NCBI GenBank assembly: GCA_015060765.1
Contig: SUXW01000010.1
Location: 1 to 64,000, forward strand
Direction of reading: 5' to 3'
Length of the DNA: 64,000 nt
Origin: Bacteroides sp.
GTDB taxonomy: Bacteria > Bacteroidota > Bacteroidia > Bacteroidales > Bacteroidaceae
Positions 45,080 through 52,963 of the stretch are shown piece after piece. A program made the position numbers and the translations under genes. Every line of letters starts with the position of its first letter. Position 1 is the first letter of the stretch. Under the pieces are notes generated by a model. The model was not told the origin of the DNA, made no database searches, and worked only from the letters and a program-made list of their open reading frames with translations.

Positions 45080-45110
45080 TGGGAGGCAGCTTTTTTTATG
45101 CCAAGCTTTT
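45080..45110 (+). repeat. Dispersed hairpin element, half copy 1
   Basis: GGGAGGCAGCTTTTTTTATG CCAAGCTTTT. It matches the right arm and T tract of the five other copies but lacks the AGCTGCTTCC left arm, so it would not terminate well. It directly precedes the promoter-leader of peptide A. Confidence 0.8.
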
Positions 45111-45154
45111 AGTTAAAGTTTGTAATCTGTTCCCAAAAAATAATGGCAAAACAA

Positions 45155-45184
45155 TTGGTTTTACACGATTTTAGTTTATTTTTG
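45155..45184 (+). promoter_or_regulatory. Promoter of peptide A and the frameshifted lipoprotein
   Basis: TTG (45155-45157), 19 nt, TATTTTTG (45177-45184). The same promoter with the same spacing occurs before peptide B. Confidence 0.75.
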
Positions 45185-45215
45185 TTGCCGTAAGTAATGA
45201 ATAAATAAAATCTAT

Positions 45216-45353
45216 ATGAAAACCAACGAAAAGTACGGAGCTTACGAAGCCCCGAAAGTAGAAGTGATTGAAGTGGAAGTGGAACGCGGATTCCAAGTGA
45301 GTGGTGGCGAGCCCCAAAGTTATGGCTACGGAGGTAGTCTGACCGGTAATTAA
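45216..45353 (+). CDS. Small acidic peptide A
   Basis: 45 residues: MKTNEKYGAYEAPKVEVIEV, EVERGFQVSG, GEPQSYGYGGSLTGN. The first 29 residues differ from peptide B (50924) at one position only (R for K), while the C-terminal parts differ fully and are rich in Gly, Tyr, Ser and Pro. There is no signal peptide. It lies 17 nt before the lipoprotein start. The conserved-leader/variable-tail layout resembles RiPP precursors, or it could be a regulatory leader peptide for the surface protein. Function unknown. Confidence 0.72.
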   Translation: MKTNEKYGAYEAPKVEVIEVEVERGFQVSGGEPQSYGYGGSLTGN

Positions 45354-45370
45354 TGATAGGAGGGACGACG

Positions 45371-47169
45371 ATGAAGAAACTATTAGTCACAACATGGATG
45401 GCGGCACTGACAGCACTTGTCGGTTGCCAGCAGAACGACGAGCTCCTTACCAACCCCGAAGCCCCACCACCGGAGGCAAGCAGATTACCGTATCTGCCCA
45501 CATTCAAAACGGTGGAGGCTCGCGTGTGGCGCTGACCGAAACCCAGGACGTGAACCAAAACCCAACCGTCAAGGTGGAATGGCGGAAGGATGCCAACAAC
45601 CCCGAAACATTCACCCTTTACCAAATGGATGTGCCGGCAACAGCTTCGGACGAGACTTCGAACGACGGCGGTGCTGCGGGCGGTGATGCCGGTTCGGGAG
45701 ACGGAGGCGCCTCGGTAGCAGTCCCCATCACCTTCACCCAAGTGAACGGCACCAATCAGTTTACGGGCGAGGTGGACGAGAACTACAACGGCACTTACGA
45801 AGCCGTATATGGCGAAGGCAATCTCGCCTTGCAAAACGGTACGCTGAACCAGGAAGATTGTGTATATATGGTGGCCGAGAATATCACCGACCTTACCCAA
45901 CCCATTACGTTTGAACACCAAACAGCTATCCTGAAGGTTGCTTTCAAGGTGGGTAATGCAGCACTCAAAATCAGCGACATCTCTGACGTTGTGATGCGAA
46001 ATGTCACCCCATTCCTTGGTGAGAGATCTTCAACCATCACCATTATACCTGCTGCACAAGCCTCGGGCAATGATGTTTACATCTTCCTGCCGGCAAGTAG
46101 TGGCTATTCGGCCGGACATTCCTTTACCTTTGGAGTGACTACAACCGATAATAACTATTACGAGGCTACACTCACCATCCCTGCCGAAATGAGTGTTGTG
46201 AAAGGCAAACTCTACACGGCCGACATGGCATTGACAACAGCCATTCCTTACGTTACGTTCAGTGCATTGGAAGAGCAGACAATGCTGATTCATAAACCGG
46301 AATCATTATCGGTAGAAATTTTTTGTTCCGTCAATGGAGGTGCTTGGGAGGATGTTTGGGTAAAGGATTACTCCATCACTTTTGGCGGTGCACATGGCGA
46401 CTTACGCTTGCGTGCAACGAGTGAAGATAAAGTAGGTACATCTGGTGGATTTGATCAAAATTCTTGTCGCATTTTGTTTACTGAGCCCAATGTACCTGTT
46501 GCTTGTTCGGGCGATATCCGTACCTTGGTGGATTCGGTGAACTACGCTACAGTAAATACTGAAAAGGCAAGGTTCTGTTATTTGTTCAATGGTTGTACCC
46601 AATTGACCTCGGCTCCTAAACTACCTGCTATTAACTTGGCATGGAATTGCTATAAAAGTATGTTCAGTGGTTGTTCTTCACTGACCACAGCCCCCGTACT
46701 CCCTGCCACTACCTTAGCGCAGGGTTGCTATAATGGAATGTTTAATCATTGCATATCATTAGAGACTGCCCCTGAACTCCCTGCCACTATCTTGAAGCAG
46801 AGTTGTTATCAGCAGATGTTTTATGGTTGTACCCAATTAACCACAGCCCCCGTACTCCCTGCCACTACCTTGGTAGATTATTGCTATATAAATATGTTTA
46901 ATGGGTGTACCAAACTGAACAACATCACCATGCTGGCAACCAATATCAGTGCATATGAATGCTTGGATAATTGGGTAGAAGGTGTAGCCGAAGAAGGTAC
47001 TTTTACCAAAGCCGCATCAATGGATATAAAAGAAGATGATTCAGAAGATGATTCAGGAGATGATTATATGCCCGTCTTTCTTTCAAGCCGTTCGGGTAAT
47101 CCAAGTATTCCTTGGGGTGCAAGCGGCATCCCCACAGGATGGACAGTACAAAATTACATCGCCCCATAA
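45371..47169 (+). pseudogene. Frameshifted fimbrillin/BspA-like surface lipoprotein
   Basis: Translation from 45371 gives a signal peptide with lipobox ALVGC and then NDELLTNPEAP, but stops at 45535. The rest is open in another frame from about 45463 to 47169 (TTGGKQITVSAHIQNGGGSR). One base appears to be missing in GCCCC at 45461-45465. The repaired protein would have a fimbrillin/Mfa-like N-terminal half (about residues 30-290, with FTGEVDENYNGTYEAVYGEG and TFEHQTAILKVAFKV) and a C-terminal BspA-type leucine-rich part with four to five 26-residue units (LPATTLAQGCYNGMF). It would be a surface adhesin-like protein. Confidence 0.8.
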
Positions 47170-47196
47170 CCCTAAAGAATCATACAAATCCCTAAA

Positions 47197-47226
47197 AGCT
47201 GCTTCCCCACGGAGGCAGCTTTTTTA
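47197..47226 (+). terminator. Dispersed hairpin element, full copy 2
   Basis: AAGCTGCTTCC, loop CCAC, GGAGGCAGCTT, then TTTTATGCC. It terminates the frameshifted lipoprotein gene. It is followed by CCTCGTGAT and a CTTCGCTCAGGATGAC segment, which resembles a repeat seen in many Bacteroidetes genomes. Confidence 0.85.
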
Positions 47227-47320
47227 TGCCCGCCCTCGTGATCCTTCCCTACGCTTCGCTCAGGATGACAAAAGGAAGAATAGACAATACAGGGGAAGGA
47301 TGGCTGTTTAAATTCAGAAT

Positions 47321-48742
47321 TTAGAATAATGCATCCATATCTATTTGGGCGATGATTTGGTCGCTATACATACCATTCCTCATACCGAAAGTGGTAATCA
47401 TTGTAGGAATAATGCTGCTTCGCGTTCCGGTGACTTCCTTAAATGCTCTGATACGATTTTGTATTTTGAGAAACTCCTCTTTATCAAGGCTATATAAGTC
47501 CTCGCTATACTTAACCTCACAAAGGTTTATTGTATTATCGGCACGGTCTATGACAATATCGATTTGAGCTCCATTCTCAACCTGATTAGTCTTCCAAGTA
47601 TAGAACTCGGTAGATACGCTTGAAATACCCAATGCTGATTTAATTTGCGGCATATGAGCCTTGCAGATACGTTCGAAAGCCAAGCCATACCATGCGGTAA
47701 TTTCCGGGGTATTTACATTGCGAGTCCAGAAATGCTCCTCTACGATATTCTTGGCGGCAAAAGTATTATAGAAAATAGTATAGAAATCCACCAGCTGATA
47801 GATAGCCGAGTTTGTCTTTATCCTTTTCTCGCAAACATTATACTTGCGCAAGAAGTCACAATACACAAGGTCGGTAAGCATATCGCCCAGCCTACCATTG
47901 TTTGATGTATCCAACTTGTCGCTCATCTCCTCTCGCGTAAGTCCCTTAGGATGTTTGGCAAGCAGTGAGATAATTTCAAGGTAAGGCTGTGGATTCTTGA
48001 AAAGCGACGAGAACAATCTGCGATACTCCTTTTTCAATTCCGCATTTCCACTGAAAAAGAGTCTGTCCAATCCCGTAGCAGGACTATCGGTTTTCTCAAA
48101 TAGGCTCATATAGTACGGAACACCACCAATCGCCATATATGCTTGTACCACACTCAGGCGATTCCAAACAAATCCATTGTTGGCAAAAAACTCCTCCGCC
48201 TCGCCCAAAGTAAACGGATGGAGATGCATTTCGTGAGTAATACGGTCGTGCAGACCTCCATGATTGTCAATGACATTACGCACCATCCACGAGGTAGCCG
48301 AACCGCAGACAATCAACATCATCTCCGACTGCCAATTTGCCCAGTTGTTCCAAAAGTGTCCGAGAGCATTGACAAATCCCGCTTTGGGTGTATCAAGACA
48401 AGGTAACTCATCAATGAAGATTATACATCGTTTTCCTTTCTCTATTTTCGACTCCAGCAACTGCCGAAGCGCAAAGAATGCATCAATCCAATTCTGATTC
48501 TTCTTACCCTTATAGCCATAGGTCTTTAAGGCTGCATGAAAGGCTGTCATCTGTTCGGATTTGCTACCCTCCATTACACCCGTCATATCGAAAGCAAACT
48601 GATTCTTGAAGTGCTGACGAATAAGGTAGGTTTTGCCTACTCGTCTTCTTCCATAAACTGCAATAAATTCAGCCTTACCAGAATGGTAATATTGGTCAAT
48701 CTGCGCCAACTCCTTTTTTCTGCCTACAATAATCTGTCCCAT
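47321..48742 (-). CDS. AAA ATPase with DUF234-type C-terminus
   Basis: 473 residues. Walker A YGRRRVGKTYLI (about 30-41), Walker B CIIFIDELPCL, sensor region MLIVCGSATSWM. The C-terminal part holds a winged-helix region (RLGDMLTDLVYCDFLRKY) and a DUF234/PDDEXK-like end (VENGAQIDIVIDRADNTINL, CEVKYS). These ATPases are common in Bacteroidetes accessory regions; their biological role is unclear. It faces the lipoprotein gene and lies between two copies of the hairpin element. Confidence 0.9.
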   Translation of the reverse strand: MGQIIVGRKKELAQIDQYYHSGKAEFIAVYGRRRVGKTYLIRQHFKNQFAFDMTGVMEGSKSEQMTAFHAALKTYGYKGKKNQNWIDAFFALRQLLESKIEKGKRCIIFIDELPCLDTPKAGFVNALGHFWNNWANWQSEMMLIVCGSATSWMVRNVIDNHGGLHDRITHEMHLHPFTLGEAEEFFANNGFVWNRLSVVQAYMAIGGVPYYMSLFEKTDSPATGLDRLFFSGNAELKKEYRRLFSSLFKNPQPYLEIISLLAKHPKGLTREEMSDKLDTSNNGRLGDMLTDLVYCDFLRKYNVCEKRIKTNSAIYQLVDFYTIFYNTFAAKNIVEEHFWTRNVNTPEITAWYGLAFERICKAHMPQIKSALGISSVSTEFYTWKTNQVENGAQIDIVIDRADNTINLCEVKYSEDLYSLDKEEFLKIQNRIRAFKEVTGTRSSIIPTMITTFGMRNGMYSDQIIAQIDMDALF

Positions 48743-49052
48743 ACTATATGTGTATTTCTTCCAATCGCAAATTTAGGGATATTTCCTCAAAAAAAGTGCA
48801 GATAATGTGCGAAAGTTTGAAAAATAGTGCAACTTTCGCACATTATCAGCCGCTTTTTAGGTTTCAAGGCCCCAATTCTTACCTGTATTTTGCAATGGCA
48901 ACGTTATATCACATCAAACTGCTTCCCACGGAGGCAGCTTTTTTTATGCCAAGCTACGATATACAGCTGTCATTATTCGTTTCACATACACCAACAATAG
49001 TGAAAGTTGTAGAAAATATTATCAAATATGCGAATTATTCAAATTATTATCT
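48743..49052. other. Intergenic region before HigBA
   Basis: No gene is supported. It includes TGCGAAAGTTTG and its near-inverted form CAACTTTCGCACATTATC (48807-48846) around AAAAATAG, possibly an operator for the ATPase gene, and hairpin element copy 3. Confidence 0.5.
48917..48947 (+). repeat. Dispersed hairpin element, copy 3
   Basis: AAACTGCTTCC, CAC, GGAGGCAGCTT, TTTTTATGCCAAGCT. The bases after the T run (ATGCCAAGCT) match half copy 1 exactly. No plus-strand gene precedes it, which suggests the copy was left behind by rearrangement. Confidence 0.85.
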
Positions 49053-49060
49053 TACTTTTG
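49053..49060 (+). promoter_or_regulatory. Promoter -7 element of the HigBA pair
   Basis: TACTTTTG, 21 nt before the toxin ATG. Confidence 0.6.
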
Positions 49061-49081
49061 TGGTGTTAATTGTGTTTTACA

Positions 49082-49399
49082 ATGAAAATCGAATTTGAAG
49101 ACATCGCTTTAGAGGAACTCTATACAAATGGAGCAACGACCGACGGAAAATATCGTAAATTACCGAAAGATATAATCAGACAATACGTCAAAGTTGTCAA
49201 TTATATCAAGGCTGTTCGCCGTTTGGAAGATCTCTTTTATATCAAATCACTTCATTATGAAAAAAAGAAAGGCGATTTGAAAGGTGTAGATGCTGTATGG
49301 ATAAACAAACAATACCGTTTGTTTTTTTACAGCTCTCCAAACGAAGAAGGTATTGTAGTAAACGCATTATTATTTGAAATATCCAAGCATTATGAATAA
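49082..49399 (+). CDS. RelE/HigB-type toxin
   Basis: 105 residues. RelE-fold features: VVNYIKAVRRLEDLFYIKSL, HYEKKKGDLKGVDAVWINKQ, YRLFFY. Such toxins are ribosome-dependent mRNA nucleases. Toxin-first order with an 8-nt overlap into the HTH antitoxin fits the HigBA type. Both genes look intact. Confidence 0.87.
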   Translation: MKIEFEDIALEELYTNGATTDGKYRKLPKDIIRQYVKVVNYIKAVRRLEDLFYIKSLHYEKKKGDLKGVDAVWINKQYRLFFYSSPNEEGIVVNALLFEISKHYE

Positions 49400-49757
49400 A
49401 GACAACATCACTCCGTTTGTAGCAACTCATCCCGGTGAGATGATAAAAGATGAATTGCGTGAAAGAAAACTTACCCAAAAACAATTGGCTCTTGCAACAG
49501 GAATCAAACCTTCCGTGTTGAGTGAAACAATCAATGGTAAACGCCCTCTGTCTAAAAGTGTGGCACTGGCATTAGAGCAAGCGTTGGGTATACCCGCTGA
49601 CATTTGGCTGAATATGCAAGTCCAATACGATTTGGATACAGTCCGTTTGTCCGAAGGAGACAATCAGCATGAAACCATATCTGTCACCATTCCAGTTCAT
49701 GACCGTAATTTACTGAAAGAGATTGCCCGTAAATTTGGATGGGCGTGCATGTTATAA
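49392..49757 (+). CDS. HigA-type antitoxin
   Basis: 121 residues. HigA N-terminal motif FVATHPGEMIKDELRERKLT, helix-turn-helix (QKQLALATGIKPSVLSETIN, GKRPLSKSVALALEQALGI) and NMQVQYDLDTVR. It should neutralise the toxin and repress the pair. An extra C-terminal segment (ISVTIPVHDRNLLKEIARKF) follows the core domain. Confidence 0.9.
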   Translation: MNKDNITPFVATHPGEMIKDELRERKLTQKQLALATGIKPSVLSETINGKRPLSKSVALALEQALGIPADIWLNMQVQYDLDTVRLSEGDNQHETISVTIPVHDRNLLKEIARKFGWACML

Positions 49758-49788
49758 GAACTATACAGAAGATAGGAATACCCCCCAT

Positions 49789-49819
49789 AGCTGCTTCCCC
49801 ACGGAGGCAGCTTTTTTTA
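49789..49819 (+). terminator. Dispersed hairpin element, full copy 4
   Basis: AGCTGCTTCC, CCAC, GGAGGCAGCT, TTTTTTTATGCC. It terminates HigBA. The sequence after it (CCCTCGTGATAACC and CTTCCCTACG) partly matches the flank of copy 2. Confidence 0.85.
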
Positions 49820-49923
49820 TGCCCCCTCGTGATAACCTTGTGGATGCACACGGTTCCTTCCCTACGTTACACTCCGTTCAGAAGGACAGGAACGGAGGGA
49901 AGACTAAGAACGGTGCCTATAGA

Positions 49924-50691
49924 TTAGAAATGCAGATGCTTGTAATTGATGAGTTCGATGTCGCCAACATTGTTCTCAAAATCACCGGAATATACCACGG
50001 CCTTTCTGCTGACGGGCGTCTTGATCCATCCCGGAAGCTTCTTTAGCACGGCTTCGAACTCCTTGTTGTATGTCATGGACGATTTCACTTCGATGGCCGT
50101 GATTTTGCCCTCCTCCTTGACGAGGATATCCACTTCGTTCCCGTTGGAGTCGCGGTAAAAGAATACTCCACCTTCCTTTCCGTTGTTCATCCGGTGCTTT
50201 ACGGCCTCCATCACCACGAAATTCTCGAAGATGTTTCCCCTCATCTTGTCCCTGGCCAATTGGCGGGGGCTCTCGATGTCAAGCAGATAGCAGGCGAGAC
50301 CCGGGTCGCAGAAGTAAAGCTTCGGACTTTTTACCAGTCGCTTGGAGATGTTCTCGTAATAGGGCGGAAGAAGATACACCACATAGGAGGCTGTCAGCAC
50401 AGAGAGCCACGACGTGATGGTCTTGCTGTCCACGCCCACTTCGTTGGCCAGTTCCGATGCATTGAATACGGAGCCTACCCTGGTGGCACAGAGTTTCATG
50501 AATTTCAGGAAGAGCATGATATCCTTTATCTTGAGCAAGTCTCTGACGTCCTTTTCCAGATACGTCTTTACATACGACGGGTAGAACAGTCTGGCCATAT
50601 TTTTCTTGGCACAGATGGCGGGAAACAGCCCTTCGTAAAGGAAATTGTCAAGCGTTTTGGCCGATGATTTTTCGCGTGATGTAATTCTTGC
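49924..50691 (-). pseudogene. C-terminal part of an AAA_14/DUF4143 ATPase
   Basis: The open frame starts at a stop at 50692-50694 and reads AKTLDNFLYEGLFPAICAKK, MARLFYPSYVKTYLEKDVRD and on through the DUF4143 domain (GNIFENFVVMEAVKH, DSNGNEVDILVKEEGKITAI, EVKSS). The N-terminal AAA domain with Walker motifs, about 170 residues, is absent. Between the break and the next leader lies only AT-rich DNA and half copy 5 of the hairpin element. A short protein from ATG 50598 is possible but would lack ATPase function. Confidence 0.82.
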
Positions 50692-50775
50692 TCATATTTT
50701 ATGTAATTTCGGAATTGCACTCCAAAAATACATAATATTTTTATTCCGACAAAGTATTGCGCATCGTTTTTTTAA

Positions 50776-50802
50776 TTTCCTCCCGGAGGCAGCTTTTTTT
50801 AT
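50776..50802 (+). repeat. Dispersed hairpin element, half copy 5
   Basis: TTTCCTCCC then GGAGGCAGCTTTTTTTATGC C. The left arm is degenerate. Like half copy 1 it stands directly before a peptide promoter-leader. Confidence 0.8.
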
Positions 50803-50862
50803 GCCCCGTTTTTAGTTAAAGTTTATAATCTGTCCCTCCAAAAAAAATAAATGGCAGAACGA

Positions 50863-50892
50863 TTGGTTTTTCACGATTTTAGTTTATTTTTG
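50863..50892 (+). promoter_or_regulatory. Promoter of peptide B and the BspA-like lipoprotein
   Basis: TTG (50863-50865), 19 nt, TATTTTTG (50885-50892). The surrounding region of about 140 bp is roughly 85-90% identical, by eye, to that at 45080-45215. Confidence 0.75.
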
Positions 50893-50923
50893 TTGTCCGT
50901 AAGCAATGATAAATAGAACCTAT

Positions 50924-51049
50924 ATGAAAACCAACGAAAAGTACGGAGCCTACGAAGCCCCGAAAGTAGAAGTGATAGAAGTGGAAGTGGAGAAGGGTTT
51001 CCAAGTGAGTCCTTATGATATGCCCTATGGCGGCAATCCATTACAATAA
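50924..51049 (+). CDS. Small acidic peptide B
   Basis: 41 residues: MKTNEKYGAYEAPKVEVIEV, EVEKGFQVSP, YDMPYGGNPLQ. A paralogue of peptide A with the same first 29 residues except K for R, then a different short tail. No signal peptide. Followed by CAGGAGGAAA, a strong ribosome site, and the lipoprotein ATG 15 nt later. Same hypotheses as for peptide A: RiPP-like precursor, secreted subunit or leader peptide. Confidence 0.75.
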   Translation: MKTNEKYGAYEAPKVEVIEVEVEKGFQVSPYDMPYGGNPLQ

Positions 51050-51064
51050 TCAGGAGGAAACACT

Positions 51065-52963
51065 ATGAAGACGATATTCCGATTGCTGTGTGGATGGATG
51101 GCGATAGCCCTCACCACAGCCTGTTCCCACGAAGAACTGTTGCAGACAGAACCGGTGCAAAAGCCAGTAGCACAGAAAACAATTAGCGTAAAGGCCTATA
51201 CCCCCAGCGAGCAGGCTGCTACACGCCTTGCTTTCGAGGATAAAGGCGAGGATGGTTTGAAGCTCTCTTGGACGGCCGGTGATATCTTTACGGCGGTTAT
51301 AGGCGGAGAGAAAGTGATGTTTGCATACAATGAAAGTAGCAAGGAATTTACCGCTATTGTAAACGAAAGTGTAACCTTGACCGATGGCCTCAAAGCCTAC
51401 TATCCTGCCTACGATGGCGAAAGTTTCGAGATGGATTTATCCCAACAAACCGGTGCGCTGAATAGTGCCACCACCTATATGGAAGGTGCATACGATGCCA
51501 CCGCCCAAGCATTCAGGTTCACTCACTCCACCGCCATACTGAAGGTTGCGTTCAGCGGTTTGCCCCAAAATGCTGTGATTTCGTCCATCGCCGTTAGTGG
51601 GGGTGTTAATGTCACAATCTCCAATCCCAATGCAACAATAAGCAAGGATTCCATTTACATCAACTTACCCGCTATTCCGAAAGATGGCCAGCTGAAGTTT
51701 ATGGTAGAAACAGCTACTAGAGATGTTTATACCGCCACCAAGACGGTAACGGCCGAGGAGGGCATCCAGACAGGTGTTTACTATAACACTACTGTTGAGT
51801 TGCAAGAGGCTTGTTTGTTGCCTACGGGTGGTGCATTTTATGATGCTATTAGAGCAGTCGACGGATATAAAAATGCCACTTCCATTGTTTTCGAAGCAAA
51901 TGTTGCTGATGAAGCTCCTGCTACACGAAGCGATTCCAATTATACTATAGCTCTCGCCGGCAATGTGCTGACTATTTCCACCCCATTGTCCGAGTTTGTT
52001 TTCAATAAGGATTGTAATCTGATGTTTTCTTATTTGACTAATATCCAAAGCATAGACTTCGGTAATTGTGTTAATACGGCGAATGTAATCGATATGGGTA
52101 ATATGTTCAATACTTGCTCTGCTCTTACCTCGCTCGATTTGAGCAGCTTCAATACGGAGAGGGTAATAAATATGTCTTATATGTTTCAAGATTGCTCTTC
52201 GCTTACCTCGCTCAATGTAAGTAGCTTCAACACGTCGAATGTGATGTTTATGCATTATATGTTCAATAATTGCTCTTCGCTTACCTCGCTCGATTTGAGT
52301 AGCTTCGATACGGCGAATGTAACGGATATGTACAATATGTTCGATGGTTGCACAAAACTTACCTCGCTCAATTTGAGTAGCTTCAATACGGCGAAGGTAA
52401 CGAGTATGGGTTCTATGTTTAGTGGTTGCTCTGCTCTTACTTCACTCGATTTGAGTAACTTCAATACGGAGAAGGTAACGAATATGGGTTTTATGTTTTA
52501 TAAATGTTCTTCGCTTAAATCACTCAATTTGAGCAGCTTCAATACGTCGAATGTAGAGATTATGATTTCTATGTTTTATAATTGTTCTTCGCTTGAATCG
52601 CTCGATTTGAGTCGCTTCAATACGGCGAAAGTAGAGGCTATGAGCCATATGTTCGATAGTTGCTCTGCGCTTGAATCGCTCGATTTGAGCAGCTTCAATA
52701 CGGAGAAAGTAACGAGTATGTCTAATTTGTTTTCTGATTGCTATTCACTTACCTCGCTCGATTTAAGTAGCTTCGATTTTAGTCTGGTTACTGATTTTGA
52801 ATATATGTTTGATTATTTAGGTTCATCTGCCACCAATAAGCCGATACCGATATATGTTACCCAAGCGGGCTATGATATTCTAAAGAATAAAAAGACATAC
52901 CATACGTATTGTAATTTCCAATATGTGGATAAAGATGGTAATCCCTACTCTAATTTAAGATGA
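51065..52963 (+). CDS. BspA-like leucine-rich-repeat surface lipoprotein
   Basis: 632 residues. Signal peptide with lipobox TTAC (Cys20). Residues about 35-270 form a fimbrillin/Mfa-like beta domain (FEDKGEDGLKLSWTAGDIFT, FRFTHSTAILKVAFSGLP). A short region at 255-315 follows, then ten 26-residue BspA/DUF285 repeats (consensus SSLTSLDLSSFNTEKVTNM, Y-MF--C) from about 327 to 590. BspA-type proteins bind host or bacterial surfaces. It is the intact counterpart of the frameshifted gene at 45371 but carries a different repeat type. Confidence 0.9.
   Translation: MKTIFRLLCGWMAIALTTACSHEELLQTEPVQKPVAQKTISVKAYTPSEQAATRLAFEDKGEDGLKLSWTAGDIFTAVIGGEKVMFAYNESSKEFTAIVNESVTLTDGLKAYYPAYDGESFEMDLSQQTGALNSATTYMEGAYDATAQAFRFTHSTAILKVAFSGLPQNAVISSIAVSGGVNVTISNPNATISKDSIYINLPAIPKDGQLKFMVETATRDVYTATKTVTAEEGIQTGVYYNTTVELQEACLLPTGGAFYDAIRAVDGYKNATSIVFEANVADEAPATRSDSNYTIALAGNVLTISTPLSEFVFNKDCNLMFSYLTNIQSIDFGNCVNTANVIDMGNMFNTCSALTSLDLSSFNTERVINMSYMFQDCSSLTSLNVSSFNTSNVMFMHYMFNNCSSLTSLDLSSFDTANVTDMYNMFDGCTKLTSLNLSSFNTAKVTSMGSMFSGCSALTSLDLSNFNTEKVTNMGFMFYKCSSLKSLNLSSFNTSNVEIMISMFYNCSSLESLDLSRFNTAKVEAMSHMFDSCSALESLDLSSFNTEKVTSMSNLFSDCYSLTSLDLSSFDFSLVTDFEYMFDYLGSSATNKPIPIYVTQAGYDILKNKKTYHTYCNFQYVDKDGNPYSNLR
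52045..52830 (+). repeat. Ten tandem 78-bp repeats inside the BspA-like gene
   Basis: Each unit is 78 bp (26 residues), seen from the spacing of CGCTCGATTTGAG-like words at 52131, 52209 and 52287. DNA identity between neighbours is high, so the copy number could change by recombination. Confidence 0.85.

Follow-up and report, generated by a model that had tools for sequence, protein, structure and literature searches.

Small YxxP-leader peptides encoded before lipoprotein genes in a Bacteroides genome as probable precursors of a RiPP pathway resembling that of linear polyphosphorylated peptides

The window analyzed here, a stretch of 64,000 nucleotides (nt) from a Bacteroides sp. genome (GenBank assembly GCA_015060765.1, contig SUXW01000010.1, positions 1 to 64,000 of the forward strand), encodes two paralogous small peptides, A (45216..45353, plus strand, 45 aa) and B (50924..51049, plus strand, 41 aa), each closely followed by a lipoprotein gene. 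We consider it likely that both are precursors in a Bacteroidota pathway for ribosomally synthesized and post-translationally modified peptides (RiPPs) and that this pathway works like that of the linear polyphosphorylated peptides (LPP) of Bacillota (Popov et al. 2026, Nat Commun 17:6633, PMC13381572). An earlier note on this DNA had proposed, from the sequence alone, that a conserved leader with a variable core marks A and B as precursors of peptide natural products. This idea gains partial support from a recognition element, a kinase, an exporter, and a protease, which are encoded in the same genome and adjoin the peptide gene in relatives.

A peptide family with one constant block and divergent tails

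Searching the window's own genome (G000) with the protein sequence of peptide A gave 15 places on ten contigs, all of them short open reading frames (ORFs). The conserved unit in these copies is a block of 20 residues with the consensus YxxPxVEVIEVEVEKGFAxS, which corresponds to the leader core Tyr10-Ser29 of A (YEAPKVEVIEVEVERGFQVS, 45243..45302, plus strand) and to YEAPKVEVIEVEVEKGFQVS in B (50951..51010, plus strand) and is the putative segment for processing and for binding by the recognition element. All 15 copies follow the pattern Y-x2-P-x-[VIL]-[EK]-x-[IVL]-[EV]-[VI]-x-[VL]-E-[KR]-G-[FY]-x-x-S, with Y, P, E, G, and S invariant and a valine, isoleucine, or leucine two positions after the proline throughout. 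The N-terminal extension before the tyrosine is variable among the copies, and the conserved leader described in the earlier note exists as this block rather than as the first 29 residues. The block closes with an A-x-S junction in 12 of the 15 copies, with Q-V-S in A and B, and with Y-V-S in one; the information content is 4.3 bits at the serine and then 1.1 to 1.5 bits over the next four positions.

Over the 20 leader codons of the 15 copies, the proportion of nonsynonymous differences (pN) is 0.19 and that of synonymous differences (pS) is 0.73. The ratio of 0.26 indicates selection at the protein level, and together with the number of genomic copies it argues that the ORFs of A and B did not arise by chance. 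Neither peptide has a Pfam or NCBIfam match at an E-value of 1, and comparing the peptide profile with solved structures gave chance-level matches only.

A and B themselves were found as the earlier note had described them, with 28 of their first 29 residues identical, unrelated tails beyond, and a gap to the downstream gene of 17 nt for A and of 15 nt for B. At the nucleotide level they share a block of 227 nt (89.0% identical, E about 1e-78; 45082..45302 for A and 50785..51010 for B, both plus strand), which takes in the last part of the upstream terminator, the promoter with the ribosome site, and the leader, and which ends at the Ser29 codon. Outside this block, nucleotide comparison of the stretches around A and B (about 2.2 kb each) gave no match at an E-value of 1e-3. 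Inspection of the sequence revealed a candidate -7 element, TATTTTTG (45177..45184, plus strand), fitting TAnnTTTG, which we take to be the Bacteroides -7 consensus. The common promoter that the earlier note had described for A and B is thus confirmed, and it is confined to this pair: the other 13 copies have no upstream DNA in common with A or B outside the coding region.

The variable tails, the putative products, are GGEPQSYGYGGSLTGN in A (45303..45350, plus strand) and PYDMPYGGNPLQ in B (51011..51046, plus strand). The 15 tails of the genome contain no lysine or arginine in 195 residues and consist of 22.6% glycine and 22.5% aspartate plus glutamate; when relatives are included, lysine (1.7%) and arginine (1.1%) are rare but present. 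An aromatic C terminus is seen in 27 of 101 distinct tails, relatives included, compared with 10.5 in shuffled sequences. Serine is absent from 42 of 103 tails, so that in these the invariant serine of the block is the only candidate acceptor. The wider set of 103 peptides was collected with patterns and profiles requiring parts of the motif, which is why conservation is claimed from the 15 copies of the own genome only; later profile matches to these 15, and to genome G025 in the order-wide search, hold by construction.

Four near-orthologous pairs have tails of equal length. The tail is conserved in L056/L161 and identical in L133/L134, and it changes faster than the leader in L083/L087 and L135/L152. 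Between L056 and L161, which come from two genera, the tail differs at 2 of 45 nonsynonymous and 4 of 12 synonymous sites, and the small number of nonsynonymous relative to synonymous changes suggests that it is under selection. As a separate observation, a DSDDSEFG-like tail motif recurs across genomes (L009, L091, L097, L164, L165, L175, and L177), and L177 encodes a second, different YxxP-like peptide with the same motif directly behind the first.

Processing genes in the same genome

A search with PF05402 found one PqqD protein in the own genome (G000:C17), the putative RiPP recognition element (RRE). Its operon (L132:8253-11446) also encodes an MsbA/PglK-like exporter, an HprK-like kinase, and an S24/S26 signal-peptidase-like protease. 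The single nucleotidyltransferase (NTase) gene of the PF14907 NTP_transf_5 family lies on another contig (G000:C1), where it ends a run of apparent glycosyltransferase and sugar-enzyme genes, an apparent polysaccharide locus.

In the RRE, the residues Asp73-x3-Trp77-x3-Leu81 are invariant in five of five sequences. Their spacing is that of D70, F74, and M78 in LppB of the LPP system, which contact the tyrosine, proline, and valine of the LPP leader (PMC13381572). The protease carries Ser36, His76, and Asp91 in nine of nine sequences, its best structure matches being signal peptidase I and SEC11, and the catalytic residue types are the same as in LppS of LPP (S29, H68, and D93; PMC13381572). 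The exporter has 541 aa and the domains ABC_membrane and ABC_tran, with no C39 match in the Pfam scan. The kinase has the P-loop GESGTGKST in nine of nine sequences; this, its position, and a weak TIGR04352 match tentatively suggest an HprK-like kinase.

Among solved structures, the RRE profile comes closest to TfuB1, a lasso peptide RRE (6jx3, E 0.006), and the best NCBIfam match is the lasso PqqD model, under its cut-off. Together with the YxxPx[V/I] leader, these matches would fit lasso peptide precursors, which we nevertheless regard as a very improbable identity for A and B. The lasso B2 protease (PF13471) is found in none of the own genome and 17 congeners, with two of 12 genomes of other families having one, and inspection of the tails by eye shows no conserved aspartate or glutamate at ring positions 7 to 9. 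A macrolactam cyclase of the asparagine-synthetase type is lacking among the scanned machine genes of L132 and L133, a comparison that was not extended to the whole genome. The lack of a B2 protease match and the signal-peptidase type of the protease separate the system from the paeninodin-type phosphorylated lasso peptides, with which it shares the leader motif, a PqqD-type RRE, an HprK-like kinase, and an NTP transferase (PMC13381572, PMC7533575).

Linked cassettes and co-occurrence in relatives

In several relatives, the peptide and the processing genes stand side by side. The order peptide, lipoprotein, PqqD, NTase, exporter, kinase, and protease is found in L133, L134, L135, L185, and L186. 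L136 has the same cassette with several lipoproteins inside, and L137 has it with the kinase ahead of the NTase. At L187, peptide, lipoprotein, PqqD, kinase, and protease are found, the NTase and the exporter not being present there. In L099 and L183 the peptide stands straight before PqqD, and all five processing genes are present. Outside L132 and L133 the cassette genes were named by alignment and by eye, the NTases of four genomes also by a PF14907 search. Between the peptide and the processing genes of L136, five consecutive lipobox genes (288 to 1192 aa) occupy L136:2601-15051.

Across 251 Bacteroidaceae genomes, a PqqD of at least 100 bits against the cassette profile occurs in 17 and the peptide at an E-value of 1e-6 or less in 22, with both in 16. 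The hypergeometric p value of 1.7e-19 counts related genomes as independent and is a guide only, and the 100-bit cut-off was picked post hoc at the gap between 101 and 89.8 bits. Coordinates read by hand place a peptide within 10 kb of PqqD in 10 of the 16 genomes and none so near in the remaining six, among them the own genome. With looser profiles, 12 of 17 congeners have both peptide and PqqD, four have neither, and one (54% complete) has the peptide only. In an order-wide sample, the peptide was found at 1e-5 in 9 of 295 genomes, seven of them outside Bacteroidaceae, and is thus rare beyond the family.

A second branch is represented by L138-L141, where a related peptide type with the motif YxxPxT...V.LExGFMxAS stands before fimbrillin-like lipoproteins near PqqD matches. 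In L138-L140, these second-branch peptides are accompanied by NTase-like and HprK-like genes within an apparent polysaccharide locus.

Likeness to linear polyphosphorylated peptides and a proposed pathway

The LPP clusters comprise a discrete RRE, an HprK-like kinase, an NTP transferase, an MsbA-like exporter, and a signal-peptidase-type Ser-His-Asp protease (PMC13381572). All five genes are found in L133, L135, L099, L183, and others, though not in L187, and the own genome has four in the operon and a separate NTase. Further shared features are the YxxPxV leader, the conserved serine behind it, the variable C terminus, and links to polysaccharide loci (PMC13381572). The LPP leader has the consensus YxxPxVLxHQxIxFETxxS, in which Y-16 and P-13 are required for RRE binding; the core begins with A-Q-S, the protease cutting before it, and Ser3 is phosphorylated (PMC13381572).

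By analogy with LPP, the PqqD protein would bind YxxPx[V/I] and extend its sheet with the beta-prone EVIEVEVE stretch, and the kinase would phosphorylate the invariant serine. The protease may cut near the GFAxS junction, at a site either ahead of A-x-S, the LPP position, or behind the serine, and the exporter would secrete the acidic tail peptide. A single machine would serve all the scattered precursors in trans. More speculatively, the mature peptide and the lipoprotein from the same transcript may act together on the cell surface.

There are also differences from LPP. The present system belongs to another phylum, has up to 15 scattered precursors with a lipoprotein gene behind most of them, and has VEVIEVEVEKGFAxS in the leader where LPP has VLxHQxIxFETxxS. 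The discussion of the LPP paper calls the family Bacillota-restricted, with a predominantly Bacillota peptidase network, and gives one to three precursors per cluster (PMC13381572).

Several observations weigh against the assignment of A and B to an LPP-like pathway. The full LPP leader consensus is not found, the agreement being confined to YxxPxV and to a serine 19 residues after the tyrosine (18 in LPP), with HQ and FET absent; for this reason, we describe the system as probably LPP-like in its working and do not assign it to LPP itself. A and B have glutamine, not alanine, two residues before the serine, and 2 of the 103 copies, both in other genomes, stop at the serine without a tail. In the own genome, no precursor lies beside the PqqD operon and the NTase is unlinked; this genome is also a draft (2.89 Mb, 42 contigs, 84% complete, 4.3% contamination). 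The protease of the own operon has no convincing family match itself and is named from the alignment. For the kinase, the TIGR04352 HprK_rel_A match (E 1e-4) is far under its cut-off and the Pfam matches are sub-threshold, the comparison of its profile with solved structures returned two ribosomal-protein chains only and nothing relevant, and the fold model is poor, with a mean predicted local distance difference test (pLDDT) score of 36. Wide-sense PqqD proteins occur in 194 of the 251 Bacteroidaceae genomes and are uninformative, leaving the subfamily cut-off alone as informative. Even so, G164 has a PqqD above 100 bits and lacks a peptide at E 1e-6, and the PqqD subfamily is missing from 6 of the 22 peptide genomes. 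Among these six, G261 has an 89.8-bit PqqD 3.2 kb from the peptide, and G231, which is 72% complete, is outside the 194 genomes with a wide-sense PqqD.

Other known systems resemble parts of this one. The prochlorosins likewise have many scattered precursors with a constant leader and a hypervariable core that one maturation set processes in trans, and they differ in the leader and in the enzyme class and are not known to be paired with lipoproteins. RiPPs and lipoproteins also meet in the DAG-RiPPs of Bacteroidota, which are RiPP-lipoprotein hybrids; there the precursor is the lipoprotein itself, whereas here the two are encoded by separate genes (PMC12636315). The bacteroidetocins and related Bacteroidales RiPP clusters are peptide precursors of the same order, but they have GG leaders and C39-peptidase exporters (PMC10352776), whereas here the leader ends in GFxxS and the exporter is without a C39 match. 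The main text of that paper does not mention lipoprotein, HPr, nucleotidyltransferase, S24, or S26. Among the matches listed in a literature search, with preprints and subscription papers mostly outside it, no publication describes LPP-like peptides in Bacteroidota, and none was found on PqqD together with fimbrillin.

Lipoprotein neighbors and alternative functions

The earlier note had placed a lipoprotein gene behind each peptide. The gene behind B is intact (51065..52963, plus strand) and encodes a lipobox-bearing protein of 632 aa, with an N-terminal part related to an Mfa_like_1 (fimbrillin-like) paralogue and C-terminal DUF285/PARCEL leucine-rich repeats. It aligns with the better Mfa_like_1 member over 333 positions at 28%, and its structure prediction has a mean pLDDT of 57, the repeats alone being confident. 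The gene behind A is split between two frames: a lipobox ORF of 54 aa with ...ALTALVGC (45371..45535, plus strand) starts 17 nt behind the peptide and is out of frame with the following body (45394..47169, plus strand), which has BspA-LRR and PARCEL matches under the curated cut-offs. Sequencing error, decay, and phase variation are all candidate origins of this split (45371-47169).

Downstream of 14 of the 15 own copies lies a lipobox-bearing gene, usually 2 to 45 nt away. Thirteen were counted by a script rule, and A was added as the fourteenth by eye because the rule takes the longer, frame-broken body. At L004, one of the 14, the lipobox ORF ends after 51 aa close to the contig end, and the fifteenth copy (G000:C7) is followed by a signal-peptidase-like protease. 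For comparison, the lipobox pattern also marks 22 of 105 ordinary next genes as positive in the own-genome loci, which are rich in these lipoproteins. The rule is permissive, with 48 of 216 control ORFs passing and at least two positives of relatives (L089 and L093) looking false. For 104 copies including relatives, the next ORF has a lipobox in 79 cases, is another gene in 17 (peptide A included), and is missing in eight, some of which mark a contig end. The earlier note had asked whether the motif always precedes fimbrillin-like or BspA genes or modifying enzymes; a lipoprotein is the usual neighbor and not the sole one, some copies preceding PqqD or a protease.

The lipoproteins are diverse. 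A Pfam scan of ten gave two with Mfa_like_1 (one just under the cut-off), two with BspA leucine-rich repeats, two M64 peptidases, one GLUG, and one Lcl_C under the cut-off, and five were without a match at 0.01. BLAST at 1e-3 nevertheless joins the lipoproteins into one network, chiefly via the N-terminal part.

One alternative is that the peptide is a translated leader whose conserved segment works in the ribosome and whose tail is a spacer, so that it controls the lipoprotein gene by nascent-chain arrest or translational coupling. The short gaps in 14 of 15 own copies make one transcript likely and would suit such control. Similarity of the lipoproteins is also better tracked by the leader (Spearman 0.17) than by the tail (0.05), the tails hardly covarying with the lipoprotein. 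Against this, copies stand before PqqD (L099 and L183) or a protease (L015) as well, the presence of the peptide follows the RRE subfamily, the tail composition is far from that of a random spacer, and the YxxP leader resembles known RRE ligands. We consider this explanation improbable, and translational control as the sole role, an option raised in the earlier note, is disfavored because some copies precede PqqD or a protease.

The pairing could also mean that the peptide is exported and cut without modification and serves the fimbrillin-like lipoprotein as a chaperone or as a structural partner such as a tip or plug, in which case PqqD and the ABC exporter would read the block as an export signal. 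The near one-to-one pairing speaks for it, being 14 of 15 in the own genome and 10 of 10 in genome G174 against the 22 of 105 ordinary next genes, as do L056 and L161, which conserve the lipoprotein start as well as the tail across different genera. However, the kinase is kept in the machine, as is the NTase in most linked cassettes. Covariation of tail and lipoprotein is also weak, with Mantel r falling from 0.29 to 0.16 and 0.13 on stepwise removal of close pairs (p 0.001 each) and the tail Spearman value given above; these values come from 71 of the 79 lipobox-positive pairs, with lipoproteins of at least 250 aa and duplicates removed. In view of this weak covariation, we do not claim dedicated pairing as shown, and we judge an unmodified partner to be unlikely. 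A subunit or chaperone-like function toward the lipoprotein, which the earlier note had listed among its alternatives, is conceivable.

As a further alternative, the peptides could be antibacterial, and the lipoprotein could confer immunity or act as a receptor. The logic of precursor, exporter, and protease would agree with this, as would the many variants per genome, which are expected in conflict systems. The complete own lipoproteins have 295 to 1325 aa, however, some of them being fimbrillin-like or of the BspA-LRR, GLUG, or M64-peptidase type, and the tails are short, acidic, and nearly free of lysine and arginine. To our knowledge, such lipoproteins are unlike known immunity proteins. 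An antibacterial role thus appears about as improbable as translational control. It could coexist with LPP-like processing, and our estimates overlap, since both the partner and the antibacterial functions are compatible with the RiPP precursor assignment.

Recombination of the peptide-lipoprotein units

G174 has ten peptide copies, all before lipobox ORFs, and nine of them lie in a 51-kb island together with processing genes. The nine gene starts are near-identical over about 50 nt, and the flanking upstream and downstream parts are differently combined, a mosaic that is best explained by recombination. The island region (L178-L181, G174:C1:1790000-1860000) holds its nine peptide-lipoprotein pairs on both strands, along with the processing genes, an IS66 transposase, and an integrase-like ORF.

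The two strands and the integrase-like ORF (L179:5754-7136) raised the idea of a site-specific shufflon. The ORF has arm-binding and SAM-like matches and is without a catalytic-domain match, no relatives of it were found in the other loci compared, and the shufflon was rejected. The analysis thus yielded no functional site-specific recombinase. A homology break exactly at the serine codon in the island was likewise discarded, as it is partly an alignment effect, identity dropping about 30 nt earlier within the leader.

Building on the RiPP precursor assignment, each pair might be a two-part surface module in which the tail, once phosphorylated, serves its own fimbrillin-like lipoprotein as a dedicated ligand or cap, with the central set maturing all peptides in trans and new pairs arising by recombination in the constant promoter-leader cassette. 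The recombination part draws on the sharing of 227 nt between A and B up to the serine codon and on the reshuffled combinations of promoter types and tail-lipoprotein bodies in G174. We put this extended proposal forward tentatively and hold it to be possible rather than probable.

Other features around the peptide genes

A terminator-like repeat, GGAGGCAGC, with a T run, mostly GGAGGCAGCTTTTTTTATGCC, occurs in six copies at 45082, 47211, 48930, 49803, 50785, and 53007. These lie ahead of A, in the intervals separating the genes from A to B, and behind lipoprotein B, and no copy is found in the rest of the window. Between both peptide genes lie a HigB-like/HigA-type toxin-antitoxin pair (49070-49757), an AAA ATPase with DUF234/DUF4143 similarity (47321-48742, minus strand), and a DUF4143 stretch (49924-50598, minus strand), apparently a piece of another AAA ATPase of this kind.

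Biological significance

The system would be a counterpart of LPP in common gut Bacteroidota, for a peptide family that the 2026 LPP paper has as Bacillota-restricted and with an open role (PMC13381572). As many as fifteen precursors seem to be served in trans by one machine, and the lipoprotein neighbors hint at a role at the surface. Cluster-based RiPP mining would tend to overlook such scattered precursors, since none adjoins the machine in the window's genome. If the assignment is true, a testable function becomes available for many small genes now called "hypothetical protein" that lie ahead of fimbrillin-like lipoproteins, and if the pairs are indeed surface modules, they would constitute a combinatorial surface variation system in gut Bacteroidota.

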